Positions 30,277 through 33,761 of a stretch of 34,965 nt of DNA are shown piece by piece. Numbering within the stretch: the first letter of the stretch is position 1; the number at the start of each line of letters is the position of its first letter. Under the pieces are notes generated by a model that worked only from the letters and a program-made list of their open reading frames with translations, was not told the origin of the DNA and made no database searches. Origin of the DNA: Bacteriovoracaceae bacterium (GTDB taxonomy: Bacteria > Bdellovibrionota > UBA2394); assembly GCA_028287765.1 (NCBI GenBank), contig JAQBPA010000269.1, positions 1 through 34,965 on the forward strand, in the 5' to 3' direction. The translations under genes and the position numbers were made by a program.

Positions 30277-30350
30277 GGTGGATATAGCTCAGCTGGTAGA
30301 GCATCCGATTGTGATTCGGATGGTCACGGGTTCAAATCCCGTTATCCACC
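30277..30350 (+). tRNA. tRNA-His (anticodon GTG)
   Basis: G-1 plus GTGGATA/TATCCAC acceptor stem, D-arm AGCTCAGCTGGTAGAGC, anticodon arm CCGATTGTGATTCGG, T-arm CGGGTTCAAATCCCG. Confidence 0.97.
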
Positions 30351-30502
30351 CGTCTTCCGCTTTGGACATTTTTCCCTGTGGACGGTTTGCTCCGCAAACC
30401 TCTTCGTTTTCTCCTCCTACTCGCTCGGTCAACGTGGATCTGACCACGTCTCTCTCGCTCGGGTGTCGTCGGCCTCGCCACAGGAAAAAATCGGAAGACG
30501 GG
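30349..30502. ncRNA. Candidate structured element/RNA directly abutting tRNA-His
   Basis: CCCGTCTTCCG (30349-30359) / CGGAAGACGGG (30492-30502) outer stem; TTTTTCCCTGTGG (30369-30381) / CCACAGGAAAAA (30478-30489) second stem; inner hairpins GGTTTGC-TCC-GCAAACC and ACGTGG-ATCTGA-CCACGT. Confidence 0.5.
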
Positions 30503-30509
30503 TTCCCCG

Positions 30510-30586
30510 TTTTTTTCGGCTACGACGAGGAGCCTGTGCTTCATGAAAATTTTTTGCGACTCCATTTCATCTATTTTATTTATTTG
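30510..30586. repeat. Dispersed repeat B, copy 1
   Basis: TTTTTTTCGGCTACGACGAGGAGCCTGTGCTTCATGAA...TTGCGACTCCATTTCATCTATTT, near-identical to 32503-32577. Confidence 0.85.
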
Positions 30587-30590
30587 CTCC

Positions 30591-30720
30591 GGAGGGGGTC
30601 AAGTTTGTTAGGAGCCAGGTCAATCGGACGCCTTATTGTTTCAATTTCCGTAATCCGCACAGCCCAAACATTTATTGGATAAATTTACGAGACCTGGCTC
30701 CTGACAAACTTGACCCCTCC
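30591..30720. repeat. Long inverted-repeat element 1 (GGGGTCA-type ends)
   Basis: GGAGGGGGTCAAGTTTGTTAGGAGCCAGGTC (30591-30621) pairs with GACCTGGCTCCTGACAAACTTGACCCCTCC (30691-30720), with one indel and one T/G pair. Confidence 0.85.
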
Positions 30721-30730
30721 TCCTCCATAC

Positions 30731-30820
30731 ACAAACTCGTCCTGTCATCGCTAACGAAGTCCGCATTTAAGCGCATACGCGAGGCAAGCAGTTCCAAAAC
30801 TGTCTAACCATCCACCCATT
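30731..30820. repeat. Dispersed repeat A, copy 1
   Basis: ACAAACTCGTCCTGTCATCGCTAACGAAGTCCGCATTTAAGCGCATACGCGAGGCAAGCAGTTCCAAAACTGTCTAACCATCCACCC. Confidence 0.85.
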
Positions 30821-31011
30821 TTGATTCATCATGCGAGTACTCCCGACACTCATCAGGGATGGGCCGCGAGCGCCGGATAACGCTAAATTTGATAGACAGC
30901 ATGGCGACCGTTTACTACCCCTATTTGAAAAGTCTTTGAAAGAAAGTTTTGAAACTGTCAAAGCTGCTTGAAAAAATTCACGATTAATCGCTAACGATTA
31001 GGAGAAATCAT

Positions 31012-31212
31012 ATGGCATGTATTATTCATAAATCGAATAAAAACGCTAAACAAAGGGATTCTCGAAAACACGTTGATCATAATCTAAAAAAAACTCCTCA
31101 GTATCTCGGTGTTCCGGCCACTGTGACCAAACAACAATTTGGAATCCATTCTCAAGCTGAAGCTAAAAAGGTTTTTTCTGAAAAAAAAGAACTTTTGGAG
31201 CAAAAAAAATAA
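31012..31212 (+). CDS. Small Lys/Gln-rich protein of unknown function (66 aa)
   Basis: Good ribosome-binding site (TAGGAGAAATCATATG) and plausible codon use; no family recognised. Confidence 0.5.
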   Translation: MACIIHKSNKNAKQRDSRKHVDHNLKKTPQYLGVPATVTKQQFGIHSQAEAKKVFSEKKELLEQKK

Positions 31213-31331
31213 ATTGCCATTTCAAGAAGGTAACTGTTTGCAGAAAGAATTAGAAAAAGAATTCCGCCCAGAATGATACGTATGAGGATCGATACTTGGT
31301 AAACTCAAACCCGTCAATATCCACCAGAAAT

Positions 31332-31378
31332 CCCAAACTCGTCCCGTCATCTCTAACTGAGCCGCCTTTAAGCCGCAG
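31332..31378. repeat. Dispersed repeat A, copy 2 (partial/degenerate)
   Basis: CCCAAACTCGTCCCGTCATCTCTAACTGAGCCGCCTTTAAGCCGCAG aligns with the first half of the other copies. Confidence 0.75.
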
Positions 31379-31424
31379 TTGTTCAGATATTGTCGGGCCG
31401 ATCAAATCATGTTATCCCAGCTAA

Positions 31425-32438
31425 ATGCTCAGGGTTCTGGCCATTTTTCTTTTTTTATCGGTTCCTGTTTATGCTTCTCTACTGGATGGAGAACCGAGCA
31501 TTGACGACGACTTTGAGAAGATAGAACAGCTTCTCGATCTCGGATATCCTACGTTAGATCCGAGCGATAAGTTTCTTCATAAATTACTAGAAGAGAAAAG
31601 ATTTGATTTTTTTTATACTAAGTCCCCCGTTTTTGACAGATTAGTCCAAGATGTTTCTGAGCGATTTCGTCGAATACGTTTAAAAATCCTTAAGCAAGAA
31701 AATAACAAACTAGACACGGCTCGCTTCAATAATTTTTTAATCGTCGCAACCGAGAGAATGATTTACTGCCTCGATCGTCCTGAAACTTGGCCAATTGGAA
31801 GACGTCCTTTGCTATTTGCTGAAGATGCTTTGGAGTTGGCGATTCGGCCAAACGCTTCTTTCGTAAGCGCTCTCGTATCTCATGCTTGGGTGAGTGCATT
31901 TCGAAAGAAGCCTGATCCTGGTCTTGCGGAATATTTTCGATTGGCTGACCACGCTGTCTTTCAATTTTATGTGCAAATGCGCATGGACGATGATGCACCT
32001 CTTGCAAATCAAATTGCTTTTCTTAAAAAAATTAATGGTGCAGATCCACTTTGGAGAAAGTGGGCAATATCTATTTATAACGGCGCTGGTCCCTATGAAG
32101 AAGGGATGGAGATGTTAATGAGCGAAAAGATTCCAGATGATGTGATAAAAGTACTCACCCGAAATTGGAAACCCATCAGTGTGATTCAATCAAAGGAAAA
32201 GGCTCGCGCGAAAATTTGGGCAGGGAACGATGATTTTGATGAAAAGCTAGAAAAAATGCGCCGATTTATGATTACATTTAGAGAGCGAGCATTGTTACAA
32301 CTTGCGATGCATTTTGGGAAAGGTGTGATTTATTCAAAAGCATATGCCAATCCATTGAGGACTTGGGCAGCAGGCGTTTCACGAAGATGTAGCCTTTTTT
32401 TAAAAGGTTTAGTTCCAAGCTCGTCCCGTCATCCCTAA
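31425..32438 (+). CDS. Secreted protein of unknown function; last codons lie in repeat A
   Basis: Signal peptide 'MLRVLAIFLFLSVPVYAS'; C-terminus '...LVPSSSRHP*' encoded by repeat A. Confidence 0.6.
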   Translation: MLRVLAIFLFLSVPVYASLLDGEPSIDDDFEKIEQLLDLGYPTLDPSDKFLHKLLEEKRFDFFYTKSPVFDRLVQDVSERFRRIRLKILKQENNKLDTARFNNFLIVATERMIYCLDRPETWPIGRRPLLFAEDALELAIRPNASFVSALVSHAWVSAFRKKPDPGLAEYFRLADHAVFQFYVQMRMDDDAPLANQIAFLKKINGADPLWRKWAISIYNGAGPYEEGMEMLMSEKIPDDVIKVLTRNWKPISVIQSKEKARAKIWAGNDDFDEKLEKMRRFMITFRERALLQLAMHFGKGVIYSKAYANPLRTWAAGVSRRCSLFLKGLVPSSSRHP

Positions 32439-32508
32439 CGAAGTCCGCGTTTAAGCCGCATACGCGACGCAAGTGGTTCTAAAATCGTCTAACCATCCAC
32501 CCATTTTT
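32412..32508. repeat. Dispersed repeat A, copy 3
   Basis: GTTCCAAGCTCGTCCCGTCATCCCTAACGAAGTCCGCGTTTAAGCCGCATACGCGACGCAAGTGGTTCTAAAATCGTCTAACCATCCACCC. Confidence 0.88.
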
Positions 32509-32577
32509 TTTGGCTCCGACGAGGAGCCTGTGCTTGATGAACATTTCGCGCGACTCCATTTCATCTATTTCAATTTG
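32503..32577. repeat. Dispersed repeat B, copy 2
   Basis: TTTTTTTTGGCTCCGACGAGGAGCCTGTGCTTGATGAACATTTCGCGCGACTCCATTTCATCTATTTCAATTTG; contains perfect GGCTCC-GACGA-GGAGCC hairpin. Confidence 0.85.
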
Positions 32578-32617
32578 AACCCTGACGAGATTGAACTCAT
32601 GATATAAGTTTGGATTA

Positions 32618-33586
32618 GTGTCGCTCTACCCGCCAATAGAACCATACAATTCCGGTCACTTGAAAGTGTCTGATCTTCATCAAATTTACTTTGAAGAGTG
32701 CGGCAATCCTAACGGAGTTCCAGTCGTTCATCTTCATGGCGGACCGGGGGCTTCCTCTCTTCCCGATCATCGAAGATTTTTTGATCCGAAATTTTATCGC
32801 ATTATTTTATTTGATCAAAGAGGATCTGGAAAAAGTATGCCTCTTGGTGAAATAAAAGAAAATACGACCTGGGATTTAGTCGAAGATCTTGAAAAGATTA
32901 GAATTCATTTAAATATTAATAAGTGGATAGTCTTCGGCGGATCTTGGGGGAGTTCTTTAGGACTGGCTTATGCTCAAACCCATCCACAATCTATTTCGGG
33001 AATTATTCTTCGAGGTATTTGGCTTCAGCAGAAATGGGAACTCGACTGGCTTTTTAAAAAAGAGGGCGCGGGCCAGCATCTTCCTGAGGCCTGGGATCGA
33101 TTTTCCAATTTTATTCCTCTTCAAGAACGTGATGACTTACTGAAAGCCTATCACTCTCGCATTCAAGCAGATGAAGGATCGATTCGAACCGAGGCAGTTT
33201 TGCGTTGGTATGAATGGGAAGCAGCTCGATATTCTTTGAAGCCAGAACCAGTGGAATCCTCGAAAGGAAATTCTCCGGCGCTCGTGGCGTTCGCAAAAAT
33301 TGAGTCACATTTCATGTTCAATAGAGGCTTTTTGAAGACAGAAGATCAGCTATTGAGAGGTGTTGATAAAATTCTCTCTATTCCAGCAAAAATTATTCAC
33401 GGACGCTTGGATATGACTTGCCCCGTAAGAGCAGCTGAATTACTTCATGCTAAGTGGCCAGAAGCAAGTTTGCAGATAGTCGAGAATGCAGCTCATTCAC
33501 CTTGGGATGCTGAGATGATCGAGGCATTGATAACGGCAACGGAAGAATTTAAAAAGAAAGTTCCAAACTCGTCCCATCATCCCTAA
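32618..33586 (+). CDS. pip: Proline iminopeptidase (alpha/beta hydrolase, S33); last codons lie in repeat A
   Basis: 'HLHGGPGASSLPDHRRFFDP', 'ILFDQRGSGKSMPLGEIKENTTWDLVEDLEKIR', 'VFGGSWGSSLGLAYAQTHP', 'HGRLDMTCPV'; GTG start. Confidence 0.92.
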   Translation: MSLYPPIEPYNSGHLKVSDLHQIYFEECGNPNGVPVVHLHGGPGASSLPDHRRFFDPKFYRIILFDQRGSGKSMPLGEIKENTTWDLVEDLEKIRIHLNINKWIVFGGSWGSSLGLAYAQTHPQSISGIILRGIWLQQKWELDWLFKKEGAGQHLPEAWDRFSNFIPLQERDDLLKAYHSRIQADEGSIRTEAVLRWYEWEAARYSLKPEPVESSKGNSPALVAFAKIESHFMFNRGFLKTEDQLLRGVDKILSIPAKIIHGRLDMTCPVRAAELLHAKWPEASLQIVENAAHSPWDAEMIEALITATEEFKKKVPNSSHHP

Positions 33587-33640
33587 CAAGGTCGCGGTTT
33601 AAGCAGCATACCCGACGCAAGCTGTTCCAAAATCGTCTAA
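33561..33640. repeat. Dispersed repeat A, copy 4
   Basis: TTCCAAACTCGTCCCATCATCCCTAACAAGGTCGCGGTTTAAGCAGCATACCCGACGCAAGCTGTTCCAAAATCGTCTAA. Confidence 0.87.
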
Positions 33641-33676
33641 GTACGCACTCGTTTTTCTTCCCACTACCGCATATGA

Positions 33677-33761
33677 GGGGTCAGGTCTGGTGGTTGCGAG
33701 AATTTAGGAGCTAGCAATTTCTGCAAGAGGGCGGTTTTTCGCAACCACCAGACCTGACCCC
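33677..33761. repeat. Long inverted-repeat element 2 (GGGGTCA-type ends)
   Basis: GGGGTCAGGTCTGGTGGTTGCGA (33677-33699) perfectly complementary to TCGCAACCACCAGACCTGACCCC (33739-33761). Confidence 0.9.

Follow-up and report, generated by a model that had tools for sequence, protein, structure and literature searches.

Putative attachment-site repeats downstream of tRNA-His: a probable additive island of small gene cassettes in a Bacteriovoracaceae genome

Two unrelated genes in a Bacteriovoracaceae genome end inside copies of the same repeat and encode similar C-terminal tails. This raises the question of what the repeat is and how it came to supply the ends of genes. The window referred to below is the whole stretch of DNA analysed, 34,965 nt long. 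An initial annotation of this DNA proposed a cassette-like layout, made no claim of an integron, and offered a repeat inserting at stop codons as a possible reading; the first two points hold and the last is not the best reading. The copies of the repeat (repeat A) are probably scars of attachment sites, left in an additive island that is anchored at tRNA-His and consists of small cassettes moved by a putative recombinase.

Repeat A in the window and its genome

Repeat A is real and has a consensus of approximately 92 nt, GTTCCAAACTCGTCCCATCATCCCTAACGAAGTCGGCGTTTAAGCAGCATACGCGACGCAAGCGGTTCCAAAACTGTCTAACCATCCACC, built from the four window copies and three on two other contigs. The four copies annotated at 30731, 31332, 32412 and 33561 are all present and all lie on the same strand. 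A sequence model search of the window genome (G000, an assembly of 2.84 Mb in 270 contigs that is 76% complete) found seven copies, namely four in the window, one on contig C37 and two on contig C240. E-values range from 1e-14 to 5e-27 and chance is therefore excluded. A weak match in G000:C179 (13 bits), located in a coding-like region, was dropped. The features concerned are as follows, in window positions unless a contig is named.

30278..30351, + strand: tRNA-His (GTG), the proposed anchor, found by ARAGORN and Rfam; 3' end ...TTATCCACCC
30488..30503, - strand: inverted copy of the tRNA-His end and flank (ACCCGTCTTCCGATTT); 15/16 match, score 27 against a shuffled maximum of 26
30506..30581, + strand: cassette-head repeat of 76 nt, copy 1, downstream of tRNA-His; 87% match to 32500-32575
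30726..30820, + strand: site copy A1; 3' box 30790-30816, core ATCCACCC at 30810-30817
31012..31212, + strand: 66-aa ORF between A1 and A2, candidate cassette body; no Pfam or family match
31328..31417, + strand: site copy A2; diverged in its 3' half, with tRNA-His-like TCAAATCATGTTATCC at the end
31425..32438, + strand: 337-aa ORF with a signal-like N-terminus; last ~9 codons and stop from A3
32411..32505, + strand: site copy A3; 3' box 32475-32501, core ATCCACCC at 32495-32502
32500..32575, + strand: cassette-head repeat copy 2, directly after A3
32618..33586, + strand: proline iminopeptidase (PIP), TIGR01249 E 1.5e-112; last ~8 codons and stop from A4
33559..33653, + strand: site copy A4; 5' box from 33559 and 3' box from 33623 are direct repeats, core diverged (ACGCACTC)
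C37 1184-1273, C240 9460-9549 and C240 10088-10182: further copies in the same genome, from the model search

Only the first ~50 nt of A2 are well kept. Two inverted-repeat elements, REP/MITE-like in appearance, lie just outside A1 and A4 (30595-30717 and 33677-33761); their arms (GGGGTCA(A/G)GT...) are 26-27 nt long and 96% complementary.

A shared protein tail

The two annotated ORFs do end inside the repeat with similar tails. The 337-aa secreted protein finishes ...LVPSSSRHP-stop inside A3, and PIP finishes ...KVPNSSHHP-stop, its own protein end reading ...EEFKKKVPNSSHHP. The 337-aa protein has no family match and no relative among 57 phylum genomes. For PIP, the alignment with orthologues bears out the annotated origin of the tail: the G014 protein ends ...ALIAATDKF and those of G004 and G018 run a few residues further. 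Since the orthologues stop at or just after ...ATDKF, the last ~8 residues of the window protein come from the repeat. Tail codons can also be read in frame at A1 (TNSSCHR-stop) and A2 (IPNSSRHL-stop), as annotated, but no plausible gene is ended by either: A1 comes after an inverted-repeat element, and the 66-aa ORF stops 115 nt before A2.

Judged by sequence comparison, the shared tail is a by-product of site placement, because sites in related genomes start at or after the stop codon. Where a site begins at a gene end, a gene without its own stop would read a few codons into the site and stop at CCC-TAA. If correct, this would explain a common C-terminal tail on unrelated proteins, which would otherwise be an annotation trap.

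Sites in relatives and at toxin-antitoxin modules

The profile search proposed in the initial annotation was extended to 288 phylum genomes. Diverged relatives of the site occur only in G003 and G004, which belong to the same family; neither G001 nor G002 has a site. A second G003 copy, on contig C13, was found once the model included the relatives' sites, and the matches together define a family of sites at the sequence level. A pattern from the repeat middle had no match in the genome contig collection, and a 3'-box pattern had matches in G003, in G004 and, beyond these, solely in a near-identical contig from the Bdellovibrio sp. CG10_47_8 bin. The nearly identical contigs L051 and L052 fall in two MAG bins (Bdellovibrio sp. 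CG10_47_8 and Deltaproteobacteria CG11_45_16), reflecting either a mis-binned contig or a very recent transfer. The site had no match in 50,697 phage records or 72,556 plasmid records.

In the relatives, each of the three sites marks the 3' end of a toxin-antitoxin module. The G003 C54 site starts a few nucleotides past the ParE stop, the G004 site (C5) overlaps the BrnA stop, and in G003 C13 the site sits at the stop codon of an XRE antitoxin gene. The BrnTA modules of G003 C13 and G004 C5, from different genera, match at 94.8% identity over 542 nt, and the identity stops exactly at the BrnA stop, where the G004 site starts. Both the stop-codon placement and this module, common to the two genera up to the site start, strengthen the cassette-like layout first annotated. 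In addition, in both the window genome (C37) and G003 (C54), a toxin-antitoxin promoter TTGAC begins 0-6 nt after the site's CACC. Upstream of BrnTA in G003:C13 (L112, 40-80) there is a stray tRNA 3'-end-like stretch (GGTTCAAATCCTGGTGGGCACGC), possibly another tRNA scar.

Placement at gene ends, which the initial annotation described, is neither uniform nor random. It holds for the two window ORFs and for the sites of G003 and G004, but not for A1, A2 or the copies on C37 and C240. None of these last three is at a gene 3' end; their positions are between divergent genes or 5' to genes on the minus strand. Overall, a co-oriented stop falls inside or just before the site in 5 of 10 copies (p 0.0025, a rough estimate with a deliberately generous assumed chance of 11% per copy). 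Insertion at stop codons is not the best reading: the C37 and C240 copies are off stops, and sites end in the tRNA-His 3' end, which points to tRNA-anchored site-specific integration.

A composite site with direct boxes

The ends of a unit are direct, not inverted, repeats of one box of ~27 nt. End-to-end alignment of the single copy A4 gave a direct similarity between GTTCCAAACTCGTC and GTTCCAAAATCGTC with p 0.004; the corresponding value was 0.006 for B240a and 0/500 shuffles for G003, and other copies in the window genome were weaker. In G004 this alignment picked a different, non-box match. A matrix built from the 3' boxes alone scored the 5' boxes at 21.2 bits in G003 C54, 19.7 in G004, 17.7 in G003 C13 and 16.1 in A4, against a best of 14.9 bits in 160 kb of masked background. 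In the window genome's copies other than A4, the 5' box has drifted below noise. A box-like match upstream of BrnT in G004 (14.8 bits) was not used, given the background maximum.

The site would accordingly read, in order, a box of ~27 nt, a variable stretch, the box again in direct orientation, and a core matching the 3' end of tRNA-His. That this architecture of box and core is conserved suggests selection as a recombination site.

The link to tRNA-His

The window array begins 375 nt downstream of tRNA-His on the same strand, the first site starting at 30726. The motif ATCCACCC is the 3' end of this tRNA and is carried by two window sites, A1 and A3. The 35-kb window contains it four times, where 0.41 occurrences are expected; the tRNA end, A1 and A3 account for three of the four. 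The match to the tRNA in this genome is only 8 nt long and its alignment score is not specific to tRNA-His; two tRNA-like stretches that flank A2 are near noise level.

In G003 the correspondence is much longer. Its tRNA-His has the ending ...CAGACACCCCATCTTGCGTCC..., the C54 site the sequence ...CCAGGCACCCCATCTTGCGTCC..., and from CACC onwards the two show no difference over 60 nt; the site continues into CACCCCATCTTG and a further 48 nt that are the same as sequence starting in the genome's own tRNA-His. This site scores 37 against tRNA-His and at most 14 against the other sampled tRNAs. A third copy of the 60-nt block lies at L077 (G003:C64) 5811. At L077 2905-2965 and 5951-6012 there are direct copies of the tRNA end CATCAGACACCCCATCTTG and inverted copies of the T-arm, and the G003 array has several tRNA-His 3'-end copies of 12-19 nt at unit boundaries. 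Furthermore, contig C64, with tRNA-His, ends in the same 55 nt with which C54, the contig of the site, begins. This has the appearance of an assembly-graph overlap, which makes it most likely that the tRNA-His array extends into the cassettes of C54. Going by these sequence matches, the tRNA-His core is shown decisively in G003 and weakly in the window genome. No tRNA-His was found in the G004 assembly; its predicted ending there is ...GGCACCCGTTTTG.

The order nuoB-tRNA-His is common to G000, G001, G002 and G003. Downstream of the tRNA, gene content differs between G000 and G003, and G001 and G002 share a first unit and then diverge. Island-like variability is thus seen in all four genomes examined, in a comparison that is between species or genera. 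Two toxin-antitoxin modules near these tRNAs were recognised by eye. In G003, downstream of tRNA-His, a macro-domain protein lies beside a DarT-like protein as a DarTG-like pair (L077, G003:C64, 4066-5241). In G001 and G002 (L076 1223-1300 and L078), a different, RelE-like module begins immediately at the 3' end of tRNA-His, and TTGA(C/T) occupies the same position in both genomes.

Proposed mechanism

We propose that the tRNA-His 3' end serves as the anchor, an attB in the role of attI, and that the small gene cassettes accumulated downstream each bear repeat A, as attachment site, at one end. Each cassette would comprise a short body, often one gene or toxin-antitoxin pair, followed by the ~92-nt site. 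A recombination event in the core would insert a cassette while keeping the tRNA intact, and the sites would all end up in one orientation. The layout fits stepwise addition at the tRNA 3' end, with each addition leaving a site.

The initial annotation also raised the matter of a tyrosine recombinase elsewhere in the genome. There are seven matches: one XerD-like and one XerC-like protein, another Xer-like protein, two integrases of the phage type and two fragments. No site lies next to any of them, and no recombinase gene adjoins any site. We infer that the cassettes are still mobile and that their movement depends on a trans-acting site-specific recombinase, probably a tyrosine recombinase. 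As no tRNA lies near the C37 and C240 copies within their contigs, and the C240 pair is inside a conjugation gene cluster, the proposal needs secondary sites or transport by a conjugative element. The cluster spans 554-13205 of C240 (L021, G000:C240) and includes a VirB4/TraC family match and, by eye, T4SS-like ORFs; the two site copies interrupt it and flank a reversed gene for a 142-aa membrane-like protein.

Alternative explanations

Repeat A could instead be a dispersed non-coding repeat, MITE-like or another intergenic element, that spread in the family and lies near genes by chance, its likeness to tRNA-His being incidental in the window genome. We regard this as unlikely. Seven copies in one genome, three of them away from gene 3' ends, would suit such an element, as would the two inverted-repeat elements outside A1 and A4 and the lack of an adjacent recombinase. 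Against this, its ends are direct and terminal inverted repeats are absent. Nor would it account for the 60-nt identity of the G003 site to sequence starting in tRNA-His, the junction with toxin-antitoxin promoters conserved in two genera, or the module common to genera exactly up to the site.

Less probable still is that homologous recombination between repeats swaps cassettes at tRNA-His with no dedicated recombinase, the sites being old integration scars. While this agrees with the lack of recombinases near sites and the variability after tRNA-His in all four genomes, homologous recombination is expected to be inefficient at 90 nt with 75-88% identity, which counts against it. The suggested selection on box and core does so too.

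It is very improbable, and largely refuted already, that the array is a degenerate chromosomal integron or CALIN with repeats as attC and an integrase lost or unassembled: despite an array of co-oriented single-gene units, an abundance of toxin-antitoxin modules, genes that terminate at the site and GTCTAAC or GTCCAAC, which fit RYYYAAC, in 6 of 9 copies, no GTTRRRY partner lies near any of the nine. The halves are not complementary in eight of them (inverted p>0.15), the degenerate A2 alone giving p=0.018, and the consensus folds on either strand are unsupported (-0.8 and -3.9 kcal/mol, one compensatory pair each). No IntI scored above the TIGR02249 cut-off in the window genome (76% complete) or 18 relatives; CALINs lack IntI in any case. 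On these grounds the attC reading was rejected, and the initial annotation was right not to claim a canonical integron. A structured RNA was likewise rejected, with no Rfam family besides tRNA and no supported fold.

Comparison with known systems

The array resembles integron cassettes in its units of one gene, all oriented alike and with the gene terminating at the site, its cargo of toxin-antitoxin modules and its anchor at one end. It differs in having direct rather than inverted boxes and a tRNA anchor, with neither GTTRRRY, a folding stem nor IntI. A broader possibility, which we consider doubtful, is a cassette-capture system distinct from integrons, with a tRNA-His platform, a composite site (two direct boxes and a tRNA-derived core) and a trans-acting recombinase that moves cassettes within and between Bdellovibrio-like genera and onto conjugative elements. 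If the main reading, an additive island at tRNA-His, is right, a tRNA can support integron-like single-gene arrays rich in toxin-antitoxin modules with none of the components of an integron, and the site would provide a concrete model for searching other lineages.

Tycheposons are likewise tRNA-anchored cargo islands, but are described as 4-200 kb with a recombinase, in contrast to the kilobase cassettes without one found here. In our analysis, the closest known kinds appear to be the ssrA islands that Dehalococcoides carries in tandem, together with additive islands whose repeats are tRNA ends. In Dehalococcoides, a single RNA gene is followed by many islands in tandem. Their boundaries carry 20-bp copies of the ssrA 3' end, around which sequence is additionally conserved over ~84 bp; about half of the islands have no integration genes and are read as cis-mobilizable, and an ORF, dsiB, whose product is a likely serine recombinase, runs through the att site (PMC3146451). 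Tandem units at an RNA 3' end and an ORF through the att site are common to both. The Dehalococcoides islands, however, are large, use tmRNA and carry dehalogenase genes and DsiB, whereas here there is tRNA-His, cassettes of 0.6-1.1 kb, a doubled box and no recombinase found.

In additive flexible genomic islands, cassettes are added and removed by site-directed recombination (Methylophilaceae, PMC10872708; Alteromonas, PMC5217437). Those of Methylophilaceae have direct repeats of the tRNA-Lys 3' end and include islands down to 330 bp with one gene (PMC10872708). Their features are present here: an array directly 3' of a tRNA in the same orientation, tRNA-end copies at boundaries (long in G003, 8 nt in the window genome), and differing content at the same tRNA. 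The Methylophilaceae repeats are plain 20-bp tRNA ends, in contrast to the ~92-nt composite site described here. What seems particular to this locus is that composite site with its doubled box, the stop-codon placement and the single-gene cassettes.
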